From positions 1 to 55,559 of IMG/VR virus record IMGVR_UViG_3300042293_000428: a DNA stretch of 55,559 nucleotides. One strand, written 5' to 3'. The notes beneath the pieces are model-generated. The model did no database searches and had not been told where the DNA came from. It was given only the letters and a program-made list of their open reading frames with translations. Shown here piece by piece: positions 610-22,884 of this stretch (position 1 is the first letter of the stretch; every line of letters starts with the position of its first letter). The translations under genes were made by a program, and so were the position numbers. The stretch comes from a virus.

Positions 610-649
610 TTTATTTTTTATTTTTTAATTTTTATTTAAATACTACATA

Positions 650-657: not shown

Positions 658-658
658 T

Positions 659-684: not shown

Positions 685-692
685 ATATAATA

Positions 693-812: not shown

Positions 813-825
813 TACTATAAGATTT

Positions 826-1056: not shown

Positions 1057-1057
1057 A

Positions 1058-2082: not shown

Positions 2083-2084
2083 AA

Positions 2085-2357
2085 TTAGTCTGTTTCATTT
2101 GTTAATGAATCTTTTTTGCTTATAATAGATGTAGAATATGTTGTTAATGACAACAAAGCTGCTATTAAACCTGCTTCTACACCAAGAAGTATAGCTACAT
2201 CAGAATAAGTTTGTCCAGGTTTAATATTATTAATAGTCTTTGATATATTCAATACAAGATTAAAAGAAAAAACAAGAGATAGCACTCTACGAATAGACAC
2301 TTTCTTATTTGTTCCTAACCATATAGGTTCTATGTATTTGAATATTTTATATATCAT
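2085..2357 (-). CDS. Putative holin (90 aa, membrane protein)
   Basis: Two hydrophobic segments are visible, about residues 25-40 (VLSLVFSFNLVLNI) and 54-72 (VAILLGVEAGLIAALLSL), with a short charged C-terminal tail. Size, topology and position directly upstream of the endolysin gene fit a class II holin, which forms membrane lesions at lysis. It overlaps the preceding gene by four bases (ATGA). Holins are too diverse to assign by sequence, so the call is contextual. Confidence 0.6.
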   Translation of the reverse strand: MIYKIFKYIEPIWLGTNKKVSIRRVLSLVFSFNLVLNISKTINNIKPGQTYSDVAILLGVEAGLIAALLSLTTYSTSIISKKDSLTNETD

Positions 2358-2974
2358 TTACGTAATTTTATTTTCCAATAAGTTTGTAAGCCTACTTGCA
2401 CTTGACCATTCATATCAAGTCCTGTATATACATTATATATATGATCTGTTTTTGTTTTAAGTAATACCCCTACATTAAATTGATTAATAAGTTGTTGTGG
2501 TCCTCCTTGTAAACCTCCTCCATAATAAATTTGATTATTTCTAAGAGGGGGAAGTGTAATTGTTTTAGTTATAGTTGGATATTTTAAATCCCAAGCTACT
2601 TTTCTATAAGTAATATTGTTATGGTTTACAGTGTCATTAATATATACATGTCCTATACTATCAAGTTTAATTGTATCTTTATATACATTAAGAGCTATGT
2701 GCTCTTCTACTAGCTTAGTGTATTGTAATACTAATTTAGCATAGTTTGGATCAGGGACATAGTTAGTTCCTGGTTTCCCTGGAATAGTCTTAACTAATGT
2801 TGGTTTAGTAATTACAGTGTTCTGTTTAACTACCCACACTGTATCTGTTTTAACAGAAGGTTTTTCTGCAGGAATATTATCTTTATTGCATTTCTGTAAA
2901 AGAATAACTGCTATTAGTATTAGTATAACAACATTAAAGAAATTCTTCTTAACCCATTCTAATATAATCATCAT
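2354..2974 (-). CDS. Membrane-anchored lysis-cassette protein, spanin-like (206 aa)
   Basis: One N-terminal transmembrane segment (about residues 12-27, FNVVILILIAVILLQKC) is followed by a long periplasm-type region with a Pro/Lys/Thr-rich stretch, a helical part near 80-100 and a beta-rich C-terminus (YYGGGLQGGPQQ onward). The Cys after the membrane segment lacks a good lipobox. Overlaps of four bases at both ends tie it to the holin-like and coiled-coil genes. A disruptor of the outer membrane (spanin function) is the natural guess in a cassette for a Gram-negative host, but no family is recognised. Confidence 0.5.
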   Translation of the reverse strand: MMIILEWVKKNFFNVVILILIAVILLQKCNKDNIPAEKPSVKTDTVWVVKQNTVITKPTLVKTIPGKPGTNYVPDPNYAKLVLQYTKLVEEHIALNVYKDTIKLDSIGHVYINDTVNHNNITYRKVAWDLKYPTITKTITLPPLRNNQIYYGGGLQGGPQQLINQFNVGVLLKTKTDHIYNVYTGLDMNGQVQVGLQTYWKIKLRK

Positions 2975-3294
2975 TGTAAATTTTTATAAATTCCTGTAGC
3001 AAATTGAATAAACGCAGCTATTGCTACAATTATACCAACTGTCCATAAAATTCTATTTTTAAAGTCTTCTTGTTGTTCTAGTTTAGATTTTAAAATGTCA
3101 ATTTCTACTTTCAATGTTTTAATATCACTCACCATTCCTCCTTCTTTAGTTAAAGGATTTCCTAAAATTCCATCAATCACTTGTGATAATTTCGTATCAA
3201 TAGAGGTCATTTTATCCTCTAGATCTTCTAATCTTTGATCCATGCTCTTTAACTCTTCTTTGATTTGTCTTTCGATATTTTCCATACTTTCCAT
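2971..3294 (-). CDS. Coiled-coil plus C-terminal membrane protein, XhlA-like (107 aa)
   Basis: From ATG 3294 the protein reads MESMENIERQIKEELKSMDQ, a heptad-rich coiled coil through about residue 80, then one membrane segment (ILWTVGIIVAIAAFIQFATG) near the C-terminus. Coiled coil plus C-terminal membrane helix is the layout of XhlA-type holin partners. An upstream ATG at 3327 is in frame, but it would lie only a couple of bases from the predicted transcript start and adds an odd hydrophobic peptide, so 3294 is preferred. It heads the lysis cassette and overlaps the next gene by four bases. Confidence 0.6.
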   Translation of the reverse strand: MESMENIERQIKEELKSMDQRLEDLEDKMTSIDTKLSQVIDGILGNPLTKEGGMVSDIKTLKVEIDILKSKLEQQEDFKNRILWTVGIIVAIAAFIQFATGIYKNLQ

Positions 3295-4068: not shown

Positions 4069-7000
4069 TTATCTTCTACTTTCTTTTTGAATTGTTATGT
4101 CAAATTCTTTAGCAAACTCAGAATCAAGTATTGCTCCATATGTCAACAATGATTTTGTTACAGGTAACATCTTAGCTAAATATTTAATAGGTTTTGCTTT
4201 TTCTCTAACTTCTTCTGAAGATAATGATGGGTCAAATAATTCAAAGCCTAATACTTGGCTAGAAAAATGAGACATGAATTTTATTACATCTGAAAAAAGT
4301 CCTATAGCAGGAAACATTGATCCTTCTAAAATTTTCTCTGCTTCTAATGGATTATAAAAGAATGAAAGTTCCCCAACAAATTTATCTACAACTCTTTGAG
4401 AAAATCTATAAAAGTTTTTAGTTGCTATATCATCATCATCATCGTCAGGAGCTAATAGTCCCATAGATAATTTTAAACCAAACAAAACAAGTAACATTGT
4501 TAATTCCTGGACCTGATTTTTTAAATTTGTTTTAATCATGTCATTGAAATCTTCTTTTGTCATAGTAAATTTTTCACCTGTTCTTTTTTGATAAGCTTGT
4601 GCATAGTCTAAATACATTTTATCTAATAAAAGAATACCTTTATCATTAACTTGTAATATATTTAAAACATTAAAACTTTTATCTTGAACAGAAGAAATCA
4701 ATACTCCCCACCAAAGTCTAACTCTACCAATATCATATTTCTCTCCTTCAGTTAAACCATCGTCATCTATTGTTACAGAAAAATCATCTGATATTTTTCT
4801 CAATTCTCCAAAACGTGTATCAACAAGTTTAGGAATCCAGTTCTTAAATACCATCATAGATCTTCCCCAAACACTCATTGACATTCTATTTATGTCAGAA
4901 TCTGACATACCTCCAGTTGCATTTCTAGAAATACGTCTACTAAGTTTTGTAACTCTATCTATTTCTTTATAGTTGTTTAAATCAAAACCAGGAATGACAA
5001 GTTTATCATTTTCCAACTTCATTGTATTAGTTATAGAACTTGTATTTTTTAATTCTATAATTTCATCTTCTATCTTTTTAGAATCTCTTGCATAATCACT
5101 TGCAGAATTATATCTATCTTTATATTTATTTTTTACAAACTCTCTAATGTTAACAATTTTTCCATCAATAATCATTGAGTTATCTAATAATGTCATAAAA
5201 ATAGATTTCTCAACATGTTGTTCAGGTTCTCTCATAAACACCATTAACCAATCAGAAAAATTTTGTTGAGTTATTTTTGATAACCCTGCTTCTTTTAATT
5301 TATCATATGTAGGATCATCTTTAAGTGGCATGAAAGTATCTATTAATTGTAAAAACATTTTACGATCATCATTGTCCTTAAATTTACTACCTATTAAACC
5401 ATTAAAGTTTTTAAAATAATCCCATTTAGTAAAATAGTTACCTGCTTGTGTAATCACCTGAATGTTTGCACCAAATAAATTCACTGCTCCTGATATAATA
5501 TCTAACCCTAATGTTTTTAATTGAAAAGTTCTATTTAGAGTATCCATAGATTTGAACAAAGAAGTGGCACTAGGTTTATCTAAATCTGTAAAAACTTCTT
5601 TACCTGCAACACCATTTATAATTTTTTTCATTTGTTTCATGATACCTGTACTTATAGAAGTATCTGTATCAGAAAGAGGATATTTTTGTTCATATAGTAG
5701 AGCTCTTAGAAAATCATCAAACATTTTAGTGTTTTGTTCATTTCCTTCTAATTCTTCTGGCTTACCGTTAGGTTTTAGTATAACATCTCCTGATCTTGTT
5801 GTAGCTAAATGTTTTTTAAAGCCTTCTACAGTTTTAATAAGCTGTGCTTGTCCTTCTACTTCAGAAAGATATTTGTAGTTATGCATATGATTTATATATA
5901 AAATCATATTCTTGAAAAGATCTTCACTTACATCTGTGTAATCATGTATAGTATTACCTGCTTCATCTTTGCTCATTGAAAAATCTGAAGTGTAATACTT
6001 TGGTATACTATGTTCTATCTCTCCAGTTAATTCATTTACATTACCAAAACCAATATCATCTGCTTGTAAAGATAATCCATTACCAAAATTCATTACAGAA
6101 GAAAGAGAAAAATCCCAAGCAAGACTTTCAGCCATTGATTTTCTTACAAATGGTAAAAATGTAGAATGAACTTTATTCTCTAAGTATCCAATATCAGCTG
6201 ATTTCTTGTTTGTTTTAATTAGGAAGTTATATAAATCAAACAGCTCTTTATCATTTTGAATATTTTTATATTCATCTGTTAACCATGGAGAAGATTCAAT
6301 TCCATTTTTATCTATAGACTTTAGAGGATGTCTTTTAATAATATAATTATTCCATCCTGTAAAATCATTTCTAGTAACGTCAAGCATTCTCTTTTCTTGA
6401 AGAATAAGTTTGGCCATCATTTCTTTATCTTCAGAATAAATTCTTTTAATTCTTTCTATTCTTTTTTCTAAAACTTCTTTTGCTTCTTTTAGATAACCTT
6501 CTCTATCTAAATTATTGTATAACCATTCTTTACTAGGAGATTCTTCAGCAGCATTTTTATCAACTAAATCATAAAATTCTTTTTTATATTTATATATAAT
6601 TTTATTAACTAATTTATTCTTGTCATCTTTTTGATATAACTGTTGTACATACTTTCTAACATCTCCTCCTTTATCAGTTATTCTTTTTCTAATAGACATT
6701 AACTCTTCAACTTCTTTTAATGCATCTCTTCTAGCTCTACCTTTAGCATTTGTAACTAATTTAAATAATATACTAACAGAAGGTAGAGGAACTTCTGAAG
6801 CTCCTCTAAAAAAAGAACCTATTCCAGACCAAACAGCTTGTGGAGATAACAAACCTTGTACAAGATTTCTTTCTCCCATAAACTTATCTGCAAATTTTCC
6901 AGTAATGTCTTCTACTTTTTTAGAAGATAAACGAATAAGTTTTGCTTCACTATCTATACTTTCTAAATAAGTTTTACGTTTAGCTAAATCTTCTTTTTGT

Positions 7001-9507
7001 TTATCAGTTTTAGCATTCTTTATTTCAGATTTATCATATATTAAATTTCCTATCAAATCATTCATAGAACCAAACACTTTTGATATAGCCATATATTCCC
7101 TAAGACTATCTGCATATTCAGAAAGTTGTACATCATTTATATCATCAGTAGAAGCTGTTTTTTTATTGTAAATTGTTTCCCAATCATTAATAAGATTTTG
7201 TCCTTCCTTTCTCATCAATTTAATTACTTGAATCAATGGAACAAGATTATTAGCACTTTGTGCAGCACGAATAGCTTTAGAAATAGCATTCATCCTCTCA
7301 CCTTTAAATCTTTTATCATCTTCGTTGGTAACCTCTTCTTTTCCTACTTGCTTCAACACTGCATTTAATTGTGCAATGGCTTCATCTAATTCCTCATTCC
7401 CAGTTGATTCAGTTTCTTCTGAAACAGGAACTAATGTAAAATCTTTTATATTACCAACATTTACAGAACCAATTTCAATTCCTTTAACTATTAAATCAGA
7501 ATCTGGATTTCTCCAGTTCTTACGTTTAACATCCATTAATATAGGAATAGCTCGCATTTGTCCAAACTCTTTTACTCCATAAGAGTCTCTTAATATATCT
7601 TTATATCTACCAAGTTGTATATTATATGCTCCTTGTTTATACCAAGCTACATCTTCTGCAGTGGCAGATACAGTCATAAACTTCCAATCAAATATATTAG
7701 CCTTACCATTTTCCTCTATTATTAAAAGGTCAATAGTTCCAGCTTCTTGTTCTTTAGGATCATATACAACTACTTCTGAAAATACCAAAGGATTCTTCTT
7801 ACCTTCAGAAAACTTTTTAACTAAATCAACATAGTATTGTTCAAGTCTTTCATAAACTTCTTCATCAGGACCAATCAGATCTATAGTTCTAGAAATAGGA
7901 GTTTCTCTTCTAGTTCCATCTTCTTTAAAATATCTATTATGTACATCTTCGAAATAGAAATGATACTTTATACCATGATCTCTTTTAAAGTCATTGATGA
8001 ACTCTTCTTCTTTAGTAAACTTTTTATTCTTTCCAAATCTTTGTTCATACCAAGCCTTCACTCTATCAGTTACACGTTTGGTGATTCTTCTTTCGTTACC
8101 AGTAGTTTCTAATTCTACATAATAATTAGATGCTTCTTCGCTATCTGCTAATAGAGGATCAACTTTTTCAGAAGATTCTCTTTTTTTAATTCTATCTTTT
8201 GTATCAAGAATACTTTGTTGTAATTCTTTTTGTTTATCAGATAATTTAGATTCTCCTTTTTTAAAGAATACACCTTCTCCTTGAAATTCAACAGGAGCAG
8301 ATTCCATGAAAGTTTTAAATCCTTCTATATCTTGTTTACTGCCTAATACATATATTTGTGAAGTATCTCTAACTACATATTGTGTTTCTAGACCTCCTAA
8401 TGGATCTTTAATGTTTAATCCTATAATACCATCGCCTCCTCTGTTAGTTTCTGTTTCTGTGTAATTTACACCATCTAAAACAACAGGGTTCTCTAAGTTA
8501 ATAACAGCAGCAACTAATTGCGGATTAGCTTCTTCTTCAGGAGCATTTAGTAATCTATTAGTAGCATCCCAATCAGCATATCTAGAAGCAGTTAAATCAT
8601 CACTAAAATAAACTCTCCCATCTCTAGGAGTTAATGATTCTAGTTTAGTAGCAGAACCTGTTCCATGGTAAACAATTTGTTCAACTTTACTATTAGGGAA
8701 TATTCTATCTATGTACATAGAATATTGTTCCTGTGTTCCTATGTTTGCTAGTTCAGGATTTTGTTCAAATATAAAATCTAACCCTTCTTGTTTACGAGCA
8801 TAAGACATTCCTATATCTCCAGAGATAATTTTAGAAGTTGCTTTTTCAAATATATCTATGTTAGCTTTTCTATATCTTCCTGAGAAGAAATCAAGGATAG
8901 CATTCCATATTTTTTGAACCATTGTTCTAGGAAGTTCTTCCATTAGTTCAGGAAACTCTACAGAGCCTTCAGATTGATTGATAATAAGCTCAACTATAAG
9001 TTTATCTACAGCTTCTTTTTTAATCTTTCTAATATTAGGTTTTCCATTAGGTAATTGATAGTTCTTATCATCTCTATAAGCTTCAAGCACTTTGTTATAG
9101 ATAGCAAACCTATCTATTTTAGAAATCATTTCTGTTACAAACTTTGGTTCTAATTTTTCTATCATAGCTGTAGCAATGTGCACCATCTCCTCTGTAAGAG
9201 TAACATCTTCTTTTCCTTCAGCAATAGCAATAATTCCTTTTACAAGATCTGCTAAACCATTTAAATCAGTTGCTTTCACATCAGGATTCCCTTTTAGATA
9301 ATCTTGAAGATCTTGCATCTTGACACCCATTTTAGCAATGAGTGCCTTCACTTTATTTAAAGTTTCTTCTGATGCCTTAGATGATAGAAGTTCTTGTTTA
9401 GGAACATTTCCTTCATAGGTATCCCACAAGTAGTAAGCTAAATCCTCTCCTTTTGATGCTACTAATAATTTCCAAGCTTCTGTATTCTTATTTGGACATG
9501 TTGCCAT
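4069..9507 (-). CDS. Giant virion cargo protein with ADP-ribosyltransferase-like and PD-(D/E)XK nuclease-like domains (1812 aa)
   Basis: Residues 1-270 are helical and include TEEMVHIATAM (H110), a degenerate zincin-like helix. Residues 275-390 carry VYHGTG (H281), YFSDD (300-304), SRYAD and ETQYVVRDTSQIYVLG (374-389), a pattern like the ADP-ribosyltransferase domains of phage polyvalent proteins. Residues 570-650 read E578, GTIDLLI (D593), IFDWKF (D607, K609) and Q631..RY635, matching the E-D-DxK and QxxxY arrangement of RecB-like nucleases. The rest is mostly helical, with a hydrophobic stretch near the C-terminus (LTMLLVLFGLKLSMGLLAP) followed by a run of Asp. It starts three bases after the polymerase gene stop. 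Ejection with the DNA is inferred from context; catalytic activity is untested. Confidence 0.7.
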   Translation of the reverse strand: MATCPNKNTEAWKLLVASKGEDLAYYLWDTYEGNVPKQELLSSKASEETLNKVKALIAKMGVKMQDLQDYLKGNPDVKATDLNGLADLVKGIIAIAEGKEDVTLTEEMVHIATAMIEKLEPKFVTEMISKIDRFAIYNKVLEAYRDDKNYQLPNGKPNIRKIKKEAVDKLIVELIINQSEGSVEFPELMEELPRTMVQKIWNAILDFFSGRYRKANIDIFEKATSKIISGDIGMSYARKQEGLDFIFEQNPELANIGTQEQYSMYIDRIFPNSKVEQIVYHGTGSATKLESLTPRDGRVYFSDDLTASRYADWDATNRLLNAPEEEANPQLVAAVINLENPVVLDGVNYTETETNRGGDGIIGLNIKDPLGGLETQYVVRDTSQIYVLGSKQDIEGFKTFMESAPVEFQGEGVFFKKGESKLSDKQKELQQSILDTKDRIKKRESSEKVDPLLADSEEASNYYVELETTGNERRITKRVTDRVKAWYEQRFGKNKKFTKEEEFINDFKRDHGIKYHFYFEDVHNRYFKEDGTRRETPISRTIDLIGPDEEVYERLEQYYVDLVKKFSEGKKNPLVFSEVVVYDPKEQEAGTIDLLIIEENGKANIFDWKFMTVSATAEDVAWYKQGAYNIQLGRYKDILRDSYGVKEFGQMRAIPILMDVKRKNWRNPDSDLIVKGIEIGSVNVGNIKDFTLVPVSEETESTGNEELDEAIAQLNAVLKQVGKEEVTNEDDKRFKGERMNAISKAIRAAQSANNLVPLIQVIKLMRKEGQNLINDWETIYNKKTASTDDINDVQLSEYADSLREYMAISKVFGSMNDLIGNLIYDKSEIKNAKTDKQKEDLAKRKTYLESIDSEAKLIRLSSKKVEDITGKFADKFMGERNLVQGLLSPQAVWSGIGSFFRGASEVPLPSVSILFKLVTNAKGRARRDALKEVEELMSIRKRITDKGGDVRKYVQQLYQKDDKNKLVNKIIYKYKKEFYDLVDKNAAEESPSKEWLYNNLDREGYLKEAKEVLEKRIERIKRIYSEDKEMMAKLILQEKRMLDVTRNDFTGWNNYIIKRHPLKSIDKNGIESSPWLTDEYKNIQNDKELFDLYNFLIKTNKKSADIGYLENKVHSTFLPFVRKSMAESLAWDFSLSSVMNFGNGLSLQADDIGFGNVNELTGEIEHSIPKYYTSDFSMSKDEAGNTIHDYTDVSEDLFKNMILYINHMHNYKYLSEVEGQAQLIKTVEGFKKHLATTRSGDVILKPNGKPEELEGNEQNTKMFDDFLRALLYEQKYPLSDTDTSISTGIMKQMKKIINGVAGKEVFTDLDKPSATSLFKSMDTLNRTFQLKTLGLDIISGAVNLFGANIQVITQAGNYFTKWDYFKNFNGLIGSKFKDNDDRKMFLQLIDTFMPLKDDPTYDKLKEAGLSKITQQNFSDWLMVFMREPEQHVEKSIFMTLLDNSMIIDGKIVNIREFVKNKYKDRYNSASDYARDSKKIEDEIIELKNTSSITNTMKLENDKLVIPGFDLNNYKEIDRVTKLSRRISRNATGGMSDSDINRMSMSVWGRSMMVFKNWIPKLVDTRFGELRKISDDFSVTIDDDGLTEGEKYDIGRVRLWWGVLISSVQDKSFNVLNILQVNDKGILLLDKMYLDYAQAYQKRTGEKFTMTKEDFNDMIKTNLKNQVQELTMLLVLFGLKLSMGLLAPDDDDDDIATKNFYRFSQRVVDKFVGELSFFYNPLEAEKILEGSMFPAIGLFSDVIKFMSHFSSQVLGFELFDPSLSSEEVREKAKPIKYLAKMLPVTKSLLTYGAILDSEFAKEFDITIQKESRR

Positions 9508-9510: not shown

Positions 9511-12500
9511 TTAACATTTATATTTTTTTATGAATTTACCAATTTCTGAAGGTGTGTACCCCATATCTGACATCATTTGATTAGTTATTTCACTAACTAG
9601 ATATGTGTTTTGATCTTTCAGTTGTAAAGATAACACATTTACATTATTAATCTCTGAAAAAAGTTTATCATCTGAAGAATCATCTACATCTGATAATGGA
9701 ATATCATCTTTTTGTTCAAATAAATTTTCTTTTAGCTTACGTTTATTTTTAGAAGCATCACTTATCTTACTACTTAAAGTTTTCTTACCAGTTCTACCAA
9801 AAGTATTTATAACTGCAGTGTCTCCTGTCTCATCAACTTTAATGAATCCATTATCTATAACTGATTCACGAGCATCATCATAGAATTCTTGAGCTCTAAA
9901 GCCATCTCCCCAAGCATTAACAGCTTTATAAACAAAATAGTCTTTATCATTTGATGAATGAATATATTCTAAATCTCTTATGTCATAAACCTTTTTGAAC
10001 AATCCTTTTTTCAAGAAAGAAAAATCACCTTCTTCTCTCATAGTAGACTCCTTCATTCCTTTAGGTATTTCTTTCCATGTGTATACAATGTACTCACTTT
10101 TACCTTCTGGAGATAATGTAGAAACAGATAATACTGGAGGGATATTTCCTTCTGCAATTTCAGCTTTGACATTTTTTGGTAAATATTTCATCGCAGGATT
10201 ATATATTCCAGTAAATGTTTTAATGGCTGATTTAGTTGGAACAATATCATCATTATTCCAATTGTTTCTTTGAAACACTCCTAAGTTATAGAAATCTTCC
10301 ATTTTAGGAAGTTCTTCTAACTTATCTAACACTCTACTATATATTTCTGAAAAATCTTCATAAGGAATAAGATTAGTAAATGATATAGGAGAAGTAGATA
10401 ATCCAGATTGTAAAACTGCCAATAATTTTAATTTATCATATATATTAGATTCTGATTTGTTTTGTCCTTTTAAATAATCACGAAGTTCTCTAAAAGCAAA
10501 TATGATATTGTTTTGATCATACACTTTATTATCTAAGCCCTTAATTTTAATATTAGTAGGATGACCTTCTCCAGATAGTTTAGAAGGAACCACTTCAATA
10601 ATATTAATTATTTCATTATCATATAGTTCATGTTCTGGATTTCGTTTTACAGATTTTACAAAATTTGTAACTTCTTCACCAATTCCACCTTCTTCTAATA
10701 ATATTCTAGCAATATCTTTATTGATAGATTCATTTCCTCCTTTAGTTTGTACTGCCCAATCAAAGAAATCATTTACAGCTTTACGAGAAAGTTTAACAAA
10801 ATCATTATCACTCATATCCACGTAAGGCTCAAGAACTTTTTGTATAATAGTTCTAGTTCTACGTTTATCTGATTTTAATATTTCAGCAAGAGCATTTCTA
10901 AAATCTCCAATTTTGTTTTGTAAATCCCCTAAGAAAGAATTATCAAGAATTTCATCAACATCAGAGATCACTGTCTTACGAGCTTTTTCTAATTGTTTTA
11001 ATTTTTTCCAAACAAGATTAGGGTCATTAAAGTTAGCTGTATCAAAGTTTGTTCCTTGTGTTACATGAAATAACTGTTCTCCCAGTTTAGCATATTTCAT
11101 AAACTCTAATAACATCATTTGTTGATTATACTTTTCAGATCTAGTTAATTCACTTATACTTTTTCCTAACATTCCTTCAAGTTCAGATTCACTTGGAATT
11201 CTAAAACCTTTTCTATCATTGAATAATTTTTTAGCATCCACCTCTCCTTTAGGATTATATTCACTTAACATATTTGTAACAAACTTAGGCATGAATAAAT
11301 AAGAATATCCAGCTTTCTCAATTGATTTTAAGTAATCTCTTATTATAGGTTGATTCATGAAATAAGCAATGTCATTGATAGGAACTCCTATCTTAACTAG
11401 AAACAACCAAGTAGAAGTTACATTTGGTGTAGCACCAAGTTCCATAATCCATGGACCTGCAGATATATCTACATATCCATCAATAAACTGTCCAATGATA
11501 TCAGAAATATCCTGACCATTTGGAAACTTTTTACTTCTTTCAGCATTTCTGATTTTTGATAATGTAGCTACACTTCCTTTATCTTTTGCTACTACAGAAT
11601 TATAATTTCTAAAATGTATAGACGCATCAGCTAACCACAATGCATCTTTATCATCAACATTGGCTAATCTTGATCTATCTATATAAACTAACTGTCTTTG
11701 ATTTAATGAATGATTAGTTTGATTTACAGCAGCAATACCAATAGCATATTTACCTGTAACAAAAGCATGTCTTAAAGATGACATAAACATTCTATTTAAC
11801 ATATTCCCTGCGTCTTTATAATTGAATGTACTTCCTGAAACTTTTTTAGCAATTTTTTCAGAAAGAGATTTCATATCCTCTGCAGAGTTAGGTTGAATCA
11901 ATCTTTCGTAATTAGATTTATGTACTGTAATATCTTGTAATGATTTTATATATGCATTCTCAACAGCTTTTCTAGTGTTTTGTTCATACTCTGACAGTTT
12001 AGAAAATTCTTCTAATGTAGGTAATTCATCAGTTTCTGCTATCTCTTTAGCAACTTCTAAATTATTAGTTGTCGTTTCTATTCCATATTTTTCTTCAACC
12101 TCATCTCTAATGGTATTCATTTTTGATGTAATCTCTAATACTGAAATATTTTTATTCTGTCTGAACATCTCTAGTGCATCTTTTGTAATAGTATTTACAT
12201 ACTCTTGTTTTGCACCAATAGCTACTAATTGTTGTTTGTAATATTCAGCAAGATCATTTAATGTATCAATCACTTCAGCATCTTCAGAAGATTCTATTTT
12301 TAATAATGTAAGTCCTAAATAGTTTTCTAATTCTACAGGACCATCTAGTCCTCTTAAACGTAATTCAATTTTTAAATCAGTATAATCATCTATCTCTTCT
12401 TGAGGAAGATTAAAAAACACTGTAGAAGATTCAGCAAACAATTCTTTAATATACAATTCTTGATCTGTAAGTTTTTCTTTTGCTACAGATACATTTTCTT

Positions 12501-15500
12501 GATATGAATTATAAAGTTCTTCTCTTCTTGTTCTAACATCTCCTTTATATTTAGCTTTAATCTCGTTTCTTAGATCATTGAATTTTTCTTTGATTTCTTT
12601 TACTGAAGGTTTAGCTAACCATTGAATATACTTCTTTGTATCTCTATTAGAATTTTCTAATACCCAGTCATAATAACGACTAGTTAATTTTTCTTCACCT
12701 TTTGTAAACTTAATTAGTTCAGGATAACCTTTACTGTTAACTTTTACATTCTTAAAATACATAGAAAGTTTATCGATATCAAAATCCGATCCAACTTTAG
12801 CAACTAGTGCAGAAGGAACCACAACAGAGTCTTTAAACTCTACAGGAAGAAATTGTTTTATTTTAAATACATCAATAGAGTTTTGTTTTTGTGTAGGAAT
12901 ACGATATGCAAATCCTTTAAGCATCTCTTGTCCTTCTTCTGTATTGTTTAAATAATCTAAAAGATCTTTATCTGATAGTTTACTTTTAAACCATCTTCCA
13001 ACCATCATTTCACATACATTGATTTCTTTATCTCCTTCTTTCATAGAATAGAAATCTAAAATATCAGACTGAAACACTAATGTATTTTTACCTTTTACTT
13101 TTCTAGTGATAGGTTTAATTTTATTTTCCTCTAATAATGCTGAAGAAATTTGTACTTTCATACCACCTGAAATTTTTGAAGATATAACTTCTCTATCAGC
13201 AATAGAATATAAAATGTTTCTAATTTGTTGATATGCTGGCGTAGCTTCTAATACTGAGTCACCTTTAATAAAATCATTTAAAGCCATCATGATATTACTA
13301 TTAACATGTCTTTTTAAAATTTCATTACGTAAAGTTGTAGCAGCTGAAGAAAAATTAACAATCTTAAATGATTTGGTTTTTACACCTTCTTTAGATTTAT
13401 AAATTATTTCTTCTATCCCTAAAGATCTTAGTAAGTTATTATATCCTTTATTAATAATAGATTCAAGAAGAGCTTGATTGTTTTGTATTTCTTTAAATAA
13501 AGGAGATGCTTCTTTTTTAGCATTCTCATCTAAAGTGTACCAAGCTTCATATCTATCTTCAAAACTTCCATCAGTCATAAAGTCTGTTGGAACTCCTGCC
13601 TCTAATGCATCTAATGTAACAAGTTTCGTAACTTGTGTTCCTCTTTTGATTTCATCTTTTTCTTTAAAAGGAACTTCTGATTGAACAGACATTATTTCAA
13701 AAGGAACATTCACTATGTTTCTTTTCTTACCTTTAGTTACATAAGGAGCATCATTAAAGTTTCCTTCAGCATCATATGTTGGATGAGCATTTATTGCTCC
13801 CACCTTTCTTGCTGACTTAAATATTATATAGTCTACACTTTCACTTTGCATTTTATTATACAACTTAACAGCATTTGAGTTAGGATTTAACTCACTCATT
13901 AATCTATAAGACAATGGGTATAGTGCAAACTTATCTAACACTACATCATTAAATGTATTACCATCTGCTTTGTTACCAGATACAATAGGTTTTAAGTCTG
14001 TAAATGCTGATTGAACTTTAGGATTTCCTGCATCTAGTATTTGAGTCTCTTCATAAGATATAGAATTATACAATTTTTCAGCAAGTTTTTTATCACCTGA
14101 TTTCTCAGCCTTCATTGCCTTATCTTGTTTCTCCCAAGCTATGTCATACTTATATTGTTTTTCATCTCCATCAGACCATTGTCCTGCTCTAATTCTAAAA
14201 TTACGATAAGCAGGGTAAGATATAATACCTGCACCATCTGTTTCTTTATACGGTTCATATCCAGGAAGATCAATTTCTCCAACAACATCTTGATGTGTTA
14301 CTGTTCTAAAATAACCTCTTGTAAAATCTGTATAACCTATATCGCCTTTTTTAAATCCTTTGTTCCAAATTGCATTGAACAATTGATTGATAGAATCTTT
14401 TCCACCAACTATTAATTGTCTAGGAGAGTTAAAACTTTTAGTTCTTTTTAACTCATCTTCATATTGATATGGATCAGAATAAAGAAGCTTGTGCATCTCA
14501 ATATTAGCAACCATATAATTAGCAGTGACAACTTTTAATTGTAAGTCCATTTCTTTCTCAGACATTCCTTTAGGAAACATTGTATTCTGAATTGTCAATT
14601 TTCCAAAATCATTTACACCGATTAAGCCATAAGATTCTAATACTTCTTTTAAGTTTTCTGCATCAGCAGTCATATAACTATCAATTGCACTGTTTATTTG
14701 TTTATCAAATTTTGAATATGTTTCTTCAAAAGAATGTGTTTTAGCATATTCAATAATTGTATCGTGTAATTTGTTTCTTTTATCTTCTTCAGATTCTTTT
14801 GTATTAGCCAATATAGATTTAAAGAAACGTAAATCTGTACGTTTTCTTCCTTCAGCTTCTACGAAAGGTCTATCTTTTTCTTGAGATACAGCTAGTTCTG
14901 AAAGAAAATAATCTTTGAATACTTTATGAACAGCAGTCATTCCAGATGATAACATCTTATAATCAAACTCATTGCCCATATAAATCATATGTTCAATAGA
15001 AGCATCTCCAGGAACAAGATTTAAAAACCATCCTTTAATATTAAGATTAAGTTCTTGTAATAATCTATCTTTATAATTTAACTTAGAAGATTGTTTTTTC
15101 TTACCAGTCATGTTGTTTTCAAATCCTCCAACATAACCAACAGTAAATAATGGAGTTTCTGATTTAGATTCTTTTTTAACTCCTTGTGATGTAAACATTC
15201 TTTTAAGAAGAGCAGAACCTTTTGTAAATGTATCTGATAATAAATAAGAGAATTGAGGAGTGGTAGATAACTCTTCTGGTGTTAAAGCATCTATTTGATC
15301 TAATGTTTCAAACAATTGACTTGCTGCATTAGGACCAATGTAAGCTTGTGTCATTTCTCCATTGATGTTGTAAAATGTACTATCTGTTTCTGGATTACTA
15401 ACTAAACTTTTAATTTCTGCAAGTTCATAAAGTCTATTGCCTATAGATAAAGTGGACATATAAAATGATGAAACCTTACCTATTGAATACAGACTACTTT

Positions 15501-18500
15501 TTAATCCTCCTACAGCTGATTTAAATTTTTCATATTGTTTAGGATTTTCTATTTCCAATCTATTTAATTCAGTTACAGTAAAAGGAACACCTAATTTATT
15601 TAAAAAGTTAACCATCCCTGTTTTTGAAACTAGACTAGTTTTATCTAGTTCTTTTCTATTAACAAAATAACCTTTAGATTTTGTAGAATATTTAAAAAAT
15701 CCTTTTTCTGATTTAGCATTTGTTGTAATAGAATTAAGATAAGTTTGTCTCAACTGTTCTGCAGCATTAGATAAGAATGCATTCTTAAGAATAACTTCTC
15801 CATTCTCAAGAACACTTACAACTTTAACTGTGGAATTGTATTTTTTAAATAATGACCATATAGAAGTGATTAATTGTAAATTACCTCTTGTTGTAACTTT
15901 ATTTAAAGCAAGTCCATTTTCAGCAACATCTTTTTTAGTAATACGTTTATAAAGTGTTTTGTAATTAATGTCACTCTTTGCTAGAGTTTTTAATTTCTCT
16001 AACATTTCATCTATGTTTCTTGCATCTGCTAATGTATTCAATAATGTAATATTAACTTGACTTACAGGAATAAGTCTAGCTCCATTAATAGAAGATTCAT
16101 CTAATTTACCTTCATCATTCAAATAAGGAACTGTAGAAAGTAAAAGTTTAATAGCTCTGTTTGCTTTTTTAAATGCATCTATTTTAGTTGCATCAAACTT
16201 ATCACTTTCTTTAATGATGTTATCATCATTAAGTTGTATGTTATCATTTTCATCAAACTCTACACTATATCCTTTTAAATAGTCTTCATATTGATCTACA
16301 ATTGAATCCCATCCATCTTGGATTTCTGTAATTAGCCCATCAATTTTTTGTAATTCTTCATTTCTAACTCTCTTTCCTATTTTCTCTTCTTCATATAAGT
16401 CATTTATAATAAAAGTATCTTGAGTTATTCTATTTAAAATATCTTTCTTTAAACCATCATATAAATCTAATTTAGATATTTTAGGATCTTGAAATAAACT
16501 AGCATCATCTTCAGTTAATTTTAATAAGGTGGCATACGTCATATGCTCTATAACTTCATGACGTATCTTATCTGATAGTCTAACCACTTCACTAAACTGT
16601 GCACCTGTAGTATTTGTTACTTCATCTATTTCAATAAATCCTTTATTAGCAAAAGACAATTCTGCAGCATAAGGAGTTGATTTAGCAAAATACCCCGATG
16701 TTATTTTTTCAAATAGTTTATCTGTGTTACTTTGAGAGTTTGGCCCCAAGAACATTTCTTTAATGAACTTAACAAGATCATCAAATAATTTTGCTATAAA
16801 AGATCTTCCTTCAACTGGTTTACTAGGAGTTTTTCCTTCTTGTACATAATCTCTAAATTCTTCTGCTAAATGTTCTTCTAACTGAATATCTGTAGCATCA
16901 GAAAAAGAAATATCTGTTCTTGATGTTCTATCAAAAAAGGTTCCTTTTTTAGTTCTTAATTCGTTAAGTATTGCTTTTTGTTCTTGTGGAGATGTAAACA
17001 TTCTCCATACAGCATGAAATACTTCGTGATATGTTGTACCTACCTCTGCATTCTCATATACATAAACTGCAGCATCTTTAAACATACCATAAGCTTGTCT
17101 TCCATTAGTAGCTTGAATTAAATTTTTAACTCTATAAAAAGGAATTGTAGGAAGAACTTTTTTAATAAAGTCTTCTATACTATTCCAATCTTCTGTTTCA
17201 ATTCCTTCTACATAATTTAATATTTTTTCACGTAATGCCTCTTCCCCACCTTTATTCCTTTTAGCATTTTTCATTAAATTTTTCAAGTTGTCACTAATAG
17301 GAGCTTCATCTTCATCTTCTTTTAAAGATTTTTTTGATTTAGGAGTTGTTTTACCAACTGTAACTCCTTTAGTAAACATGCTATCAAAATCTTCGTCTTC
17401 TTCTTCAACTTGTTCTTCTTCTTCTTCTCTACTTTCAAGAACAGTTATTACATGTTTTGTAATAGTTGATTTTAAAAGTTGTTCAGCATTCTTACCTTTG
17501 TTTGCAGGATTGCTACCAATTTTCTCAACAACAGCATCATAATCTCCTTCATCTGTAACAATAATGACACCCTTACCTTTCATGTTTAAAACATTAGGGT
17601 GAACTACATAACTAATCTTCTTCCCATCAGGAAAGGTGAATGTATTAATAGTTTCCATATCTGGATCTATGTCAGTATTATCTATTTCTACATCTTCTTC
17701 TTTTGAAGGTTTTTTTCCTGGTTCTTTTTTAAATGATTTACCTTTTGCAAAATCTTTTGTTTTTGTAGATTTTTTTGTATTAACTGGAGCTCTTTTTTTA
17801 CTAGGTTTTTTAACAACTTTTTTAGTTTCAGCAAATGCATAATCATCAGCATTGTCTGTTGTATAAAAATAAATACCAGATCTATTTACATCTTCTACAT
17901 CATTCAAAGGACGCATTGCTGTAGATAATGGAGTGTTATTCATTTCTCTAGCTTCTCCTGAAGGTAATGTACTAGATAAAAGATATGATTGGTAGTTTTG
18001 CCATGTTACAGATTCAACTTGACCATCTTCAGAAATAGAAACTATTTGTTCATACTCACGATTAATATCATCGAGCATTTGGGAATTAACATTCCCATAA
18101 ATATCCATAATCTTTTCTATAACAGAATTTTTATTTCTTAAAAGTTCTGTTGGAGTAAATGTAAAATCTAATCCTTCTTTAGATATTGTTAGTTTAAGTG
18201 CGCCAGTCTTTTCATCAGTTTCAAAAAAGATACTATTATACCCAGCTGGTTTTTTATTTCCTTGAGCATCTATAGGAATACCCCAATACACAACAGATTT
18301 TAAATATTCTAGTATACGAGTAGGTTCAGGATCTTTCATATCCTGATATATATCATTAGCGTATTCTGCCAATTTAACTAATGCATCAAATATTGATGAA
18401 GCTTCTTGTTCTGTATGCTTTCTATTTTGTACAGGCACAAGAGCATTTGGTAATTGTACAAACACTTTACCTGTTGCACTATCATAAGATGTTAATCCTT

Positions 18501-21500
18501 GAGAACCTTCTGCTTCTGTTTTTGGAACTCTCAACACTATTTTTGTTTCAAGATCTTCTTGAGAAACTAATCCTGCATCTAGAACACTAGTTCTAGCATC
18601 GTAATCAGGTTCATTGTTTTCATCTAATACAAATTGAGGAATACCAAAAGAAGCTCCTACACTATGAAGATCTTCTACTTTAGTTTGTTTTAAAACTTTT
18701 TTCTTCCAATCAGCATATGCTTTTCTAACTGCTTTTTCAATTTCTTCAGAAGTATTTTTTCTGAACATACTTTCTTCAGTCTTACCATCTTTGCTCCATT
18801 TAGCATTCCATGTAAGTTTATCATCAGCAAATACTTGATACACACCTTTACTAATATATTCTGTTCTATTAGTAATTGGTTGCCCAAATTCATCTACTGG
18901 AATACCTTCTTCATTGACCATTAATAAAGCCACTGTAGAATCAGTATCTATACTATCATCTATGTTACCTCTTTCATTTATTTTTAAATGATCCATCAAT
19001 CCAGGAATCTTTTCATCCTGATTATTCTTTGTAATATAAACTCCATAGACAGATCCTTCAGGAAAACTATCTAGTCTTGCCCCAAAGTTATTTGCTCTTA
19101 CTTGATGTGGCTTTCCTGTATTAGGAGCCATTGTGGCTCTACCAATTACTTCACTTGATTTTTTAGCAACTGGTTCATATTTACCTCCCTGTCTTTTATT
19201 TTGTATAGCCTTTACATCTTTTGTTGCTTCAAGTTCTGCTTTACGCTCCTTGTTAGTAGCCATAGCTTTCTGTTCTTCTTCTATACGATTTTGTTCTTCT
19301 ACAAAAGATTCAAACTTACTTAGCACTTTACCAGTAGCAATGTATCTATTTACAAGATCATCCAATCCTTGAATAAGTTCTTCTAGTTCTTTAGGGAGAG
19401 TTTCAACTTTTCTTGTTAGCTCAGGAAGGCCATGTTCTTCTTGATATTCATATATAGAATCTTGTAGACTAGAAACAAGTTCAGTGAGACCTTCTCTATT
19501 AGCAATGTAATATTTAGCTCCCTCTTCTCCTAACATTTTTTCAACTCTAGATTGTAATTCATCTAAGTATAATGGAACAATTACATTGTCTGTTCTTTTT
19601 ACACTAGCTTTTAAATTATCAATATATTCGTTAAAACTTTCTAATGTTTTTTTGTATAACTCATCAATGAGTTCTGTCATCTTCTTATTATCACTAATAG
19701 CTTTATCAGTCACCTCATATAAATCACTTAGCACTTTAAGATCACTATTTAACTGATCAATAAAATCTTGACTACCTCCTTCAAAGTTTTTGTATTCTTC
19801 AATCAAAGATTCAAAGTAAGGAATGTCATATTCAAGATCAGCTTTTCTATCCAACAACACTTCATTTTCTAACTCAATATCTTCTCTAAGTTTTGATAAA
19901 GAGTCTAAAGTTTTCTGTAAAGTTTTACTAATTCTAGCTCTAGGCTTACCTGTTTTTGTTAACTTAAGATCATCTATCTCTTCAGCAATTTTTTGAATCT
20001 TTTCTTTATTGCTTTGAAGTTTATTATTAATAGATTCAACTTGTTCTACAGCATCTTCGTAAAGATCTTTTATAATTTTATTCCTTGCTTCAACACTTTC
20101 TCTATATTGACTAGCATTGTCTGTAGCCAAAGCTTCAAGAAGTTCTCTAATTGACATCTCTGTTTCAGAATCATATTTCTCAAGAGCTTCAATCATCGGT
20201 AAAGAAAATCCTTTTTGTTTTTCAAATTGCTTTGTTGTAACAGGTTTACTTCTTTCTTTACCTCTAGCATCAATGTAGTAAAATTCTAATGTATCTTTTT
20301 CAGCATTATATCTAACTCTACCTTGTCTAGGATTACCATCTTTATCTTTAAATCCTTTGTGTTGAAATAATTTGTTTCTATTTTTTATTGTAAATTTTGC
20401 AAGAGGATTTGCAAGAGTTTCTTCTAACCCTTGTAAATCATAAGATTCTAATTTCTCTGGAGATACATTAAATGTTTCTTTAGTTTTAACATCATACATT
20501 TGTATGGTGCCATCTTCATTCATTCCTAAAATCTTAACAGTAGGAGTTCTATATATAGGTTGTCCATCTTTTGTATATTCTATAACTTCTCCTAAAAAAT
20601 ACTTCTTTCCTATAACATAATCAGATTCACCAGTTTTAGTTTTAATCTTAACTGTTCCAAGATTTTCATCTTCTTCAGTTTTTGAATAATCAAAAGCTTT
20701 AGCTTTATATTTTTCAGGATTGTTTTTTATATCACTATATTGCTTTAAAAGAAAATCTCTTTTAGCAGTCATGAAAGCAGCATCATCTAATGCTTCAATA
20801 AGTTCTTCTTTATTGATAAGTTTACTTGCTTCAAGATTAGCAACAGCTATATTAAATGTATCTAATTTACCTTCAGAAACATCTTGTAAAATTTCATCTA
20901 TATTATTTACACTTCCTAATAATTGACTCTTTAAAGATGGAATTCTTTGTTCATAGTCTGAAATTTTAGTTGCGCCATATACCATTTTATCAATTACAGC
21001 AGAACTATATATAGGATTTTTTTCTTCATCTACTTGTCCACTATAACGTAAGTTTAAAGTTTGGTATAAAGATTTTACATTATTAGCAGTTTGTTCAAAA
21101 TTATTAAGTCTAGCTAAAAATGCTTCTCTAGTATCTGTAGGAAGAGCTTTTCCTTCTTTTACTAATTCATTAAATCCATCATCAGTACTAGCAAGAGTTC
21201 TATAATCATCTATTTCAGCTTTTACTAAATCAAATCTTCCAAATTTAATTCTAGGAGTAAGATAATTAATAATGTAATCTGTTTCTTTATCTTTACTTTC
21301 AGTAATATTTCCTTCTGTTAATAATTGTTCTCTTTCTTCTTGTAGAACAGTTCCTCTATTTACAGAATCTTTTGTTTCTTTAGTAAAATCAGATAACTGA
21401 TAGTTATTAAATTGTTTTACTGCTTCTGCTGTATTTAATGATTTTGCTCTTGCTTCTTGGAAGTTGCTTTTTCCCATCATTATTGCACCAGACAAACCAC

Positions 21501-22884
21501 CTATTAAAATATTTTTAGCCCCTTCATCTGATAAAAATCCTTCGGTAATTCCTGTTGACAAAGCATCTAACCAATCTGTAGGAGTGTTATTGTACTTTTT
21601 ATTATAATAATCATTTACTCCTACACCAATAGAAAACTGTGCTCCTTCTTCAAATCCTTCTGAAGCAGAGAAAGTGTAAGGTCTTATTTTATTTAAAGTA
21701 TTTAATATTTTACTTTTAGGAGTTTTTACAATAAATTTACCAGCAGCATCTGTGGTTATATCCCCTATTTCTCTAGTAACATTATTTATAATTCCTTTTT
21801 CTGCTTTATAAGAACTTCCTAGTATTTTAGGAAATTGTATATAATTGGTTGCACTAAGTAAAGCAACATTTCCTAAAAAAGAAGCATTACCTATACTATC
21901 AGCAGCTCTATTAATTTTTTCAAGATCGGATCCTGTAGGTTCAACTCCCCTATGAGTATCTTTATATTCTTGTATTTTTTGATTTCTAAAAGCATTAAGA
22001 TGTTGATATGCTTCAAACCCAGCCTCTCCACTAGTAGACAATCCTGCAACAACAGCTCTGTGTCCTTTATCTAAAACATTATATGTTCTTAAATAGGAAT
22101 CAGATAATGCTTTTATTTTACCATAAGCCTCTGTTCCTTTATCAAGTTTTAATAACATTTCTTCTGACTTAGCAACTGCCTCAGCAGCTCTACCCATAGA
22201 TAATAATCTGGATGCGCCTGGAAGAGCTGCAAGTCCTTTTAATCCTGCAGAATATAGACCACCTGTCAAATAAGCTCCAGCAGCAAATCCCATATTTTTA
22301 ACTACACCATCCCATAAAAAGTTTCCTGTCAAAAAGTAATCAGGAGAATACCATTTAGCATTTTTTTCTATATCAGTATAAAAGTTAGGAGCAACGTCTT
22401 CAGCTTTTTTTACTATTTCATCTAAGTTTCTATTAAAATCATTATCATAAAAAGAGGCAAACCTTCCATCTTTTCCCCATTGTATTAAACCATTAACAAG
22501 TCCAAAGGTACCTTGTACAAAAGTAGTACCTGTAAGTAATAATCCTTTACCTACACCGTTAACCATTTTAGCTCCCCAATCTTGTCCATAAGCAGCAAAA
22601 TCTTCATTACTTTTTAATAATGGATTATAAGCGTCATATCTTTTATTAGCTTCTAATTCAGAAAAACCTACTGATATACCTTTTTGTTTACCAGCAGGCA
22701 TGCTTGCAAATAATTCAGCTTTACTTTCCAAATCCCCATCATTAGGTGTTCCTGATATAATATTATTATCATAATCTGGAAACTGTATAGAAGGATATCT
22801 CTTTGATTCCTGAATATTAATTTCAGGAAGAGATAATTTACTTTCTTTAATAATAGGATTTAATAACTTATCAAAGTCTGGCAT
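9511..22884 (-). CDS. Giant virion RNA polymerase with zincin-like protease domain (4457 aa)
   Basis: The RNA polymerase core is marked by DGAGIIS (D2883) in the first double-psi barrel and GSDFDIDKL (D3367, D3369, D3371) in the second; RIPTQKQNSI and FLP precede the latter as in crAss-like polymerases. DFDID is the metal-binding motif of phi14:2 gp66, a virion polymerase that transcribes early genes after ejection. The N-terminal 500 residues hold glycine-rich hydrophobic segments. A beta-rich part lies near 720-870 and coiled coils near 930-1160. A Lys-rich linker lies near 1685-1730, followed by an acidic stretch near 1820. HEVFH (H1953, H1957) with EEF (E2008/E2009) downstream looks like a zinc metalloprotease site. 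It is about twice the length of gp66. It lies between two other cargo genes in a tightly packed block. Confidence 0.85.
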   Translation of the reverse strand: MPDFDKLLNPIIKESKLSLPEINIQESKRYPSIQFPDYDNNIISGTPNDGDLESKAELFASMPAGKQKGISVGFSELEANKRYDAYNPLLKSNEDFAAYGQDWGAKMVNGVGKGLLLTGTTFVQGTFGLVNGLIQWGKDGRFASFYDNDFNRNLDEIVKKAEDVAPNFYTDIEKNAKWYSPDYFLTGNFLWDGVVKNMGFAAGAYLTGGLYSAGLKGLAALPGASRLLSMGRAAEAVAKSEEMLLKLDKGTEAYGKIKALSDSYLRTYNVLDKGHRAVVAGLSTSGEAGFEAYQHLNAFRNQKIQEYKDTHRGVEPTGSDLEKINRAADSIGNASFLGNVALLSATNYIQFPKILGSSYKAEKGIINNVTREIGDITTDAAGKFIVKTPKSKILNTLNKIRPYTFSASEGFEEGAQFSIGVGVNDYYNKKYNNTPTDWLDALSTGITEGFLSDEGAKNILIGGLSGAIMMGKSNFQEARAKSLNTAEAVKQFNNYQLSDFTKETKDSVNRGTVLQEEREQLLTEGNITESKDKETDYIINYLTPRIKFGRFDLVKAEIDDYRTLASTDDGFNELVKEGKALPTDTREAFLARLNNFEQTANNVKSLYQTLNLRYSGQVDEEKNPIYSSAVIDKMVYGATKISDYEQRIPSLKSQLLGSVNNIDEILQDVSEGKLDTFNIAVANLEASKLINKEELIEALDDAAFMTAKRDFLLKQYSDIKNNPEKYKAKAFDYSKTEEDENLGTVKIKTKTGESDYVIGKKYFLGEVIEYTKDGQPIYRTPTVKILGMNEDGTIQMYDVKTKETFNVSPEKLESYDLQGLEETLANPLAKFTIKNRNKLFQHKGFKDKDGNPRQGRVRYNAEKDTLEFYYIDARGKERSKPVTTKQFEKQKGFSLPMIEALEKYDSETEMSIRELLEALATDNASQYRESVEARNKIIKDLYEDAVEQVESINNKLQSNKEKIQKIAEEIDDLKLTKTGKPRARISKTLQKTLDSLSKLREDIELENEVLLDRKADLEYDIPYFESLIEEYKNFEGGSQDFIDQLNSDLKVLSDLYEVTDKAISDNKKMTELIDELYKKTLESFNEYIDNLKASVKRTDNVIVPLYLDELQSRVEKMLGEEGAKYYIANREGLTELVSSLQDSIYEYQEEHGLPELTRKVETLPKELEELIQGLDDLVNRYIATGKVLSKFESFVEEQNRIEEEQKAMATNKERKAELEATKDVKAIQNKRQGGKYEPVAKKSSEVIGRATMAPNTGKPHQVRANNFGARLDSFPEGSVYGVYITKNNQDEKIPGLMDHLKINERGNIDDSIDTDSTVALLMVNEEGIPVDEFGQPITNRTEYISKGVYQVFADDKLTWNAKWSKDGKTEESMFRKNTSEEIEKAVRKAYADWKKKVLKQTKVEDLHSVGASFGIPQFVLDENNEPDYDARTSVLDAGLVSQEDLETKIVLRVPKTEAEGSQGLTSYDSATGKVFVQLPNALVPVQNRKHTEQEASSIFDALVKLAEYANDIYQDMKDPEPTRILEYLKSVVYWGIPIDAQGNKKPAGYNSIFFETDEKTGALKLTISKEGLDFTFTPTELLRNKNSVIEKIMDIYGNVNSQMLDDINREYEQIVSISEDGQVESVTWQNYQSYLLSSTLPSGEAREMNNTPLSTAMRPLNDVEDVNRSGIYFYTTDNADDYAFAETKKVVKKPSKKRAPVNTKKSTKTKDFAKGKSFKKEPGKKPSKEEDVEIDNTDIDPDMETINTFTFPDGKKISYVVHPNVLNMKGKGVIIVTDEGDYDAVVEKIGSNPANKGKNAEQLLKSTITKHVITVLESREEEEEQVEEEDEDFDSMFTKGVTVGKTTPKSKKSLKEDEDEAPISDNLKNLMKNAKRNKGGEEALREKILNYVEGIETEDWNSIEDFIKKVLPTIPFYRVKNLIQATNGRQAYGMFKDAAVYVYENAEVGTTYHEVFHAVWRMFTSPQEQKAILNELRTKKGTFFDRTSRTDISFSDATDIQLEEHLAEEFRDYVQEGKTPSKPVEGRSFIAKLFDDLVKFIKEMFLGPNSQSNTDKLFEKITSGYFAKSTPYAAELSFANKGFIEIDEVTNTTGAQFSEVVRLSDKIRHEVIEHMTYATLLKLTEDDASLFQDPKISKLDLYDGLKKDILNRITQDTFIINDLYEEEKIGKRVRNEELQKIDGLITEIQDGWDSIVDQYEDYLKGYSVEFDENDNIQLNDDNIIKESDKFDATKIDAFKKANRAIKLLLSTVPYLNDEGKLDESSINGARLIPVSQVNITLLNTLADARNIDEMLEKLKTLAKSDINYKTLYKRITKKDVAENGLALNKVTTRGNLQLITSIWSLFKKYNSTVKVVSVLENGEVILKNAFLSNAAEQLRQTYLNSITTNAKSEKGFFKYSTKSKGYFVNRKELDKTSLVSKTGMVNFLNKLGVPFTVTELNRLEIENPKQYEKFKSAVGGLKSSLYSIGKVSSFYMSTLSIGNRLYELAEIKSLVSNPETDSTFYNINGEMTQAYIGPNAASQLFETLDQIDALTPEELSTTPQFSYLLSDTFTKGSALLKRMFTSQGVKKESKSETPLFTVGYVGGFENNMTGKKKQSSKLNYKDRLLQELNLNIKGWFLNLVPGDASIEHMIYMGNEFDYKMLSSGMTAVHKVFKDYFLSELAVSQEKDRPFVEAEGRKRTDLRFFKSILANTKESEEDKRNKLHDTIIEYAKTHSFEETYSKFDKQINSAIDSYMTADAENLKEVLESYGLIGVNDFGKLTIQNTMFPKGMSEKEMDLQLKVVTANYMVANIEMHKLLYSDPYQYEDELKRTKSFNSPRQLIVGGKDSINQLFNAIWNKGFKKGDIGYTDFTRGYFRTVTHQDVVGEIDLPGYEPYKETDGAGIISYPAYRNFRIRAGQWSDGDEKQYKYDIAWEKQDKAMKAEKSGDKKLAEKLYNSISYEETQILDAGNPKVQSAFTDLKPIVSGNKADGNTFNDVVLDKFALYPLSYRLMSELNPNSNAVKLYNKMQSESVDYIIFKSARKVGAINAHPTYDAEGNFNDAPYVTKGKKRNIVNVPFEIMSVQSEVPFKEKDEIKRGTQVTKLVTLDALEAGVPTDFMTDGSFEDRYEAWYTLDENAKKEASPLFKEIQNNQALLESIINKGYNNLLRSLGIEEIIYKSKEGVKTKSFKIVNFSSAATTLRNEILKRHVNSNIMMALNDFIKGDSVLEATPAYQQIRNILYSIADREVISSKISGGMKVQISSALLEENKIKPITRKVKGKNTLVFQSDILDFYSMKEGDKEINVCEMMVGRWFKSKLSDKDLLDYLNNTEEGQEMLKGFAYRIPTQKQNSIDVFKIKQFLPVEFKDSVVVPSALVAKVGSDFDIDKLSMYFKNVKVNSKGYPELIKFTKGEEKLTSRYYDWVLENSNRDTKKYIQWLAKPSVKEIKEKFNDLRNEIKAKYKGDVRTRREELYNSYQENVSVAKEKLTDQELYIKELFAESSTVFFNLPQEEIDDYTDLKIELRLRGLDGPVELENYLGLTLLKIESSEDAEVIDTLNDLAEYYKQQLVAIGAKQEYVNTITKDALEMFRQNKNISVLEITSKMNTIRDEVEEKYGIETTTNNLEVAKEIAETDELPTLEEFSKLSEYEQNTRKAVENAYIKSLQDITVHKSNYERLIQPNSAEDMKSLSEKIAKKVSGSTFNYKDAGNMLNRMFMSSLRHAFVTGKYAIGIAAVNQTNHSLNQRQLVYIDRSRLANVDDKDALWLADASIHFRNYNSVVAKDKGSVATLSKIRNAERSKKFPNGQDISDIIGQFIDGYVDISAGPWIMELGATPNVTSTWLFLVKIGVPINDIAYFMNQPIIRDYLKSIEKAGYSYLFMPKFVTNMLSEYNPKGEVDAKKLFNDRKGFRIPSESELEGMLGKSISELTRSEKYNQQMMLLEFMKYAKLGEQLFHVTQGTNFDTANFNDPNLVWKKLKQLEKARKTVISDVDEILDNSFLGDLQNKIGDFRNALAEILKSDKRRTRTIIQKVLEPYVDMSDNDFVKLSRKAVNDFFDWAVQTKGGNESINKDIARILLEEGGIGEEVTNFVKSVKRNPEHELYDNEIINIIEVVPSKLSGEGHPTNIKIKGLDNKVYDQNNIIFAFRELRDYLKGQNKSESNIYDKLKLLAVLQSGLSTSPISFTNLIPYEDFSEIYSRVLDKLEELPKMEDFYNLGVFQRNNWNNDDIVPTKSAIKTFTGIYNPAMKYLPKNVKAEIAEGNIPPVLSVSTLSPEGKSEYIVYTWKEIPKGMKESTMREEGDFSFLKKGLFKKVYDIRDLEYIHSSNDKDYFVYKAVNAWGDGFRAQEFYDDARESVIDNGFIKVDETGDTAVINTFGRTGKKTLSSKISDASKNKRKLKENLFEQKDDIPLSDVDDSSDDKLFSEINNVNVLSLQLKDQNTYLVSEITNQMMSDMGYTPSEIGKFIKKYKC

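Follow-up and report, generated by a model that had tools for sequence, protein, structure and literature searches.

An exchangeable predicted ADP-ribosyltransferase and a near-constant predicted nuclease in a giant, probable cargo protein of a crAss-like phage

CrAss-like phages are the dominant group in the human gut virome, and to our knowledge the roles of the cargo that they inject, beyond transcription, are largely unknown. Alt of phage T4 is an ADP-ribosyltransferase (ART) presumed to be packaged in the head and injected. Its active site is of the R-S-E type (PMC5512222); that of the ARTs in polyvalent proteins consists of a histidine in strand 1, a tyrosine in strand 2 and an aspartate in strand 5 (Iyer et al., 2017, PMC5512222). 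Two parts of the locus described here are already known from other proteins: ARTs occur in polyvalent proteins, the ART-PolyVal proteins including one fused to an N4-like virion RNA polymerase (vRNAP; Iyer et al., 2017, PMC5512222), and a PDDEXK domain occurs in a large protein of the transcription block in some crAss-like phages (Yutin et al., 2021, PMC7886860). The latter protein shares domain type and gene block with the nuclease considered below, and the portions of that paper that treat it do not discuss an ART partner or its exchange. No paper treating ART cargo in Crassvirales came up in text searches of the open-licence literature. What is new is that a cassette is exchanged on the backbone of a virion-cargo protein, and that the nuclease apparently moves from one cargo chain to another.

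The window, the whole 55,559-nucleotide stretch of viral DNA that was analysed, has Pfam matches to the crAss capsid protein (MCP), muzzle and ring 1 proteins, and is therefore a fragment of a crAss-like phage. An open reading frame of 1812 codons, beginning with ATG and free of internal stops, immediately follows a crAss-like vRNAP gene on its downstream side, four bases away (Table 1). The crAss RNA polymerase motif DFDID is found at residues 3367-3371 of this 4457-aa neighbour (window positions 12772-12786), and a zincin-like HEVFH is found at its residues 1953-1957 (17014-17028). The whole 1812-aa protein gave no useful match in Pfam, NCBIfam or PADLOC. An earlier note made from the sequence had read it as two effector enzymes, an ART and a nuclease, in one chain beside the vRNAP. 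The domain identities given below and the DFDID motif of the neighbour agree with two predicted enzymes in this place, and the motifs quoted for both are present at their residues at a level of conservation that excludes chance. With two unrelated predicted enzymes on a single polypeptide encoded by a mobile element, the protein belongs to a known kind, the polyvalent proteins. Like those of the ART-PolyVal type, it is a giant multidomain phage protein tied to a vRNAP, with a predicted H-Y-D ART and further enzymes in the chain; unlike those described, it has the backbone of the crAss cargo protein gp49 and an ART exchanged as a cassette with arms conserved in DNA.

Table 1. Features of the cargo locus, with window positions
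Feature	Positions	Strand	Basis
Polyvalent cargo protein, 1812 aa (crAss001 gp49 orthologue with predicted ART and nuclease domains)	4069..9507	-	ORF; hhalign to gp49
vRNAP-type cargo protein, 4457 aa (gp47 N-part + gp50)	9511..22884	-	blastp to gp47 E 7e-28, gp50 E 1e-10; DFDID motif
N-terminal header CPNKNT-EWK..AYYLWD, residues 1-36, one of several interchangeable headers	9400..9507	-	comparison of relatives
Conserved helical domain with EExxH (E106-H110), residues 37-232, possibly degenerate zincin	8812..9399	-	alignment of 30; also in gp49
Predicted ART domain (ART-PolyVal / H-Y-D type), exchangeable cassette	8278..8811	-	residues 233-410
Left cassette arm, codons 258-281, ending at H281 (strand 1)	8665..8736	-	codon identity above expectation
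Y300, ART strand 2	8608..8610	-	among 55 relatives: Y 33, F 15
D359, strand 5 start, predicted third catalytic residue	8431..8433	-	D in 46/55; strand in model
Right cassette arm, codons 382-400	8308..8364	-	codon identity 0.715 vs 0.572 expected
Predicted RecB-type PD-(D/E)XK nuclease, residues 471-720	7348..8097	-	phrog_298 and PDDEXK_1 matches, Foldseek
G512-xxx-H516-xxx-E520 helix motif	7948..7974	-	kept in 35, 34, 33 of 35
D593 (GTID), predicted metal ligand	7729..7731	-	35/35
D607-W-K609, (D/E)xK motif	7681..7689	-	D and K 35/35
Q631-xxx-Y635 helix motif	7603..7617	-	35/35
Conserved helical backbone, residues 721-1812, hydrophobic stretch 1669-1687	4072..7347	-	common to gp49 and cr10_1

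The relationship to gp49 is carried by the backbone. In hhalign, a family profile from which the ART had been left out aligned with the greater part of crAss001 gp49 (probability 97-99; E 1e-10 and 6e-9), with negative shuffled controls and with the nuclease skipped, and the gene order beside the vRNAP is the same as in crAss001. Backbone homology and gene order next to the vRNAP place the protein in the gp49 orthologue group of Crassvirales. The two share gene position, the EExxH domain and the C-terminal backbone; they differ in that gp49 has neither enzyme, the PD-(D/E)XK-like region of crAss001 being located in gp47. Since gp49 is a virion protein, the 1812-aa protein is likely to be packaged as well. 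It could instead be made late, remain unpackaged and act inside the producing cell, as the searches link it to packaging through orthology only. We regard this as unlikely, considering that gp49 and its neighbours gp47 and gp50 were all detected in crAss001 virions by mass spectrometry (PMC10172136) and that polyvalent proteins are predicted to be virion-borne.

The N-terminal part of this likely virion protein is less uniform. Its header is 74-77% identical in L004 and L021 and unrelated in L001 and L037. The following domain has low pLDDT and no confidently modelled fold; its EExxH (window positions 9178-9192, also in gp49 and L021-L028) corresponds to HExxH in relatives such as L031 (LLHEIIH), and the domain is possibly a zincin in which the first histidine has been lost family-wide. 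With HExxH altered and a poor model, an active protease is unsupported.

Residues 233-410 were modelled by AlphaFold on a 55-member alignment with a pLDDT of 90.9 and a pTM of 0.86. A Foldseek search of the PDB with this model gave seven convincing matches, all PARP-type ART domains (best E 8e-4), at low TM-scores of about 0.39, and the next match had a probability of 0.06. Forty matches at E <= 0.001 were found in BFVD; several carry the name ART-PolyVal, and crAss-like phages are the source of some. The window ART barely matches Pfam ART-PolyVal (PF18760), at E 0.028 and with a score of 15.6 bits, which is below the cut-off of 31.2 bits. A wider search brought the ART relatives to 64 loci, and 43 of the 55 relatives used for family matching matched ART-PolyVal (E up to 0.1, best 4e-14). 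The homologous domain of the crAss-like phage cr10_1, 31% identical to the window ART (E 5e-8), does so at E 2e-17 and 64.7 bits. Searches of PDB sequences with the ART profile gave no match, and searches of genome contigs found no close relative of the ART. The ART fold proposed earlier is confirmed in outline by these comparisons, and the domain is a predicted ADP-ribosyltransferase. In cr10_1 (NC_055875; 96376 to the record end, and 7-3171), an ORF without annotation, which continues up to the end of the linear record, holds the ART-PolyVal and two HExxH motifs; annotation covers just the remainder, at the record start.

The alignment and the model place H281 and Y300 in the first and second strands, and D359 where strand 5 begins. 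These three residues form the predicted catalytic set, which has the H-Y-D pattern known from ARTs of polyvalent proteins. The earlier reading of the motifs was right about H281 and the fold, and has to be corrected in the predicted third catalytic residue, which is D359; QYVVRDTSQI was rejected as a catalytic element and is structural, as it forms strand 6 and closes the cassette on the right. An Alt-like R-S-E site was also rejected, as the residues at these positions are H, Y and D. The window ART thus differs from Alt, and from the family that it defines, in its site as well as in its fusion to a giant cargo protein. Position 281 is H in 49 and R in 8 of 57 ART relatives, and position 359 is a residue other than D in 9 of 55, so that activity may be absent from some cassettes or depend on a different active site. 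The same substitutions and the hypervariable ART core would also be expected if the ART were a decaying or inactive passenger maintained by recombination. For the window ART this seems improbable: all three residues are kept, the frame is intact, the model is confident, and L037 retains an almost identical copy.

Comparison of relatives points to a cassette. L001 is 90% identical to the window protein in both amino acids and nucleotides outside residues 233-410, yet lacks the ART. L037 has an ART about 93% identical in amino acids (residues 241-390) and 92% in nucleotides, against 62% and 68% elsewhere; L052 and L072 share ARTs at 89% in amino acids and 95% in nucleotides, with nucleases at 35%. 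By these comparisons, which reveal gain or loss as well as exchange, the predicted ART is a recently exchanged cassette. Its slot lies between the EExxH domain and the nuclease in the window, L037 and L040, and before the EExxH domain in L005, L024, L044, L052, L057, L068, L072, L094 and L096; in other phages the ART is inside the ORF with the RNA polymerase motif (e.g., L041 and L056) or stands alone (L046 and L051). L003 has a GNAT domain instead of the ART in the N-terminal slot, near its N-terminus (7479-7898; Acetyltransf_1 above cut-off). The arrangement resembles polymorphic toxin systems in combining a constant delivery part with exchangeable effector modules, and differs from them in that the protein is likely phage virion cargo and the module is internal or N-terminal. 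A swappable ART on a virion-borne backbone would give a direct handle on early host takeover, and the window and L001, which pair a cassette-bearing with a cassette-free version of one phage backbone, are open to comparison.

Other N-terminal regions of relatives carry further modules. Those of L005, L011 and L020 have the pattern GS..A..(H)D(L/I/V)D, which is like that of pol-beta nucleotidyltransferases, with no Pfam match. L004, L014, L021, L028 and L029 have in common a module of about 500 aa in the same N-terminal slot (residues about 40-530); it contains the motifs EVQSD and GHAQFATD and has no identity in Pfam.

How could cores be exchanged between such proteins? The ART core is highly variable in length and sequence, but both ends of the cassette are nearly invariant in protein and conserved in DNA. 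For pairs with core identity below 40%, the agreement of codons for the same residue was compared with the expectation from codon usage. In the left arm, codon 273 (AGY throughout) may reflect the search pattern, and the result for the arms therefore rests on codons outside it: codons 278-281 agree at 0.85 vs 0.53 expected, and the right arm, likewise outside the pattern, also exceeds its expectation (Table 1). The corresponding values are 0.632 vs 0.573 for the core codons and, as a comparison, 0.589 vs 0.539 for the conserved nuclease columns in divergent pairs. Exact DNA scans for the arms found 43 and 12 stretches, most of which carry both arms. The simplest reading is that homologous exchange at the arms, a step that we infer, explains the conservation of the DNA; possibly the arms are instead kept by selection on DNA or by recent spread. 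Recombination at the arms would provide a route of effector spread, and the arms permit systematic collection of variable ART cores. More broadly, we suggest tentatively, as an idea that may well prove wrong, an effector-cassette system in crAss-like virion cargo: recombination at the short arms conserved in DNA would exchange ART cores, and in one relative GNAT, at fixed slots of giant proteins that are ejected, the vRNAP chain among them, rapidly diversifying pre-packaged effectors against host defences.

The second predicted enzyme behaves differently from the exchangeable ART. PHROG 298 (exonuclease) matches residues 489-647 (E 2e-4), exonuclease PHROGs match 21 of 28 relatives, and Pfam PDDEXK_1 matches 6 of the 28. 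The RecB-type motif set (GxxxHxxxE, D, (D/E)xK and QxxxY) is present; in an alignment of 35 homologues G512, H516 and E520 are nearly fixed, and E578, D593, D607, K609, Q631 and Y635 are identical in all 35, down to about 27% identity. The domain was modelled for the close relative L001 (90% identical) from an alignment of 28 sequences; its core has block pLDDT values mostly of about 80-96 and the alpha-beta-beta-beta-alpha-beta order expected. The best PDB matches of this model in Foldseek were RecE, EXO5, MGME1 and Cas4, with modest E-values of about 0.01 to 0.06, and AdnAB was also among its fold matches. The core model, the RecB-clan matches and the invariant residues uphold the PD-(D/E)XK assignment made in the earlier note, and support a RecB-type predicted nuclease at residues 471-720.

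Across the clade of the window protein this predicted nuclease is core, a near-constant part of the cargo set; its carrier can change. A PD-(D/E)XK-like region is detectable in crAss001 gp47 (hhalign E 6e-4; PDDEXK_1 E 0.002), with the motifs AGEVDIL, IYDVKTS and QLSAY; a plain HMMER search with the nuclease profile missed gp47, and this case rests on weaker hhalign, blastp and Pfam evidence. The motifs fall at gp47 residues of about 1775-1875; the only annotation that this virion protein bears is that of a putative RNA-polymerase subunit. In cr108_1, the nuclease is located in a 1714-aa protein. As crAss001 has it in gp47 rather than in gp49, the nuclease seems to belong permanently to the cargo set and to be able to sit in different chains.

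Our overall proposal, which we consider probable, is that the 1812-aa protein is gp49-type polyvalent cargo with a constant nuclease and an exchangeable, host-modifying ART. The gp49-orthologue backbone would be made with the late structural and transcription block and enter the head; together with the vRNAP it would then be ejected, either before the DNA or along with it. Drawing on host NAD+, the ART would modify macromolecules of the host (proteins of transcription, translation or defence) as infection begins, an action, with putative activity and targets, that may be likened to that of T4 Alt, and its cores would turn over by recombination at the short arms. The most likely substrates of the nuclease would be DNA ends or branched DNA, either in early infection or while DNA is being packaged. 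The earlier suggestion of a takeover or counter-defence device fits the ART better than the nuclease, as the ART alone shows accessory, cassette-like turnover; the nuclease is as well explained by processing of phage DNA as by cutting of host DNA. Its constancy makes the phage's own DNA ends and intermediates the more probable substrate. Taken further, the nuclease would serve only phage DNA metabolism (end trimming, recombination, or resolving branched DNA before packaging), leaving the ART as the sole effector. We lean slightly toward this version: the nuclease is near-universal and invariant in the clade while effectors come and go, a similar nuclease in crAss001 gp47 suggests a function kept with its carrier changed, and RecE, MGME1, EXO5, Cas4 and AdnAB are all DNA-end processors. 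The presence of the nuclease in a protein predicted to be ejected, and the polyvalent context, speak against this version.

In one ART-bearing relative (L149; 245-282 and downstream), YDLGT replaces DWK in the nuclease region, and the nuclease there is possibly inactivated.
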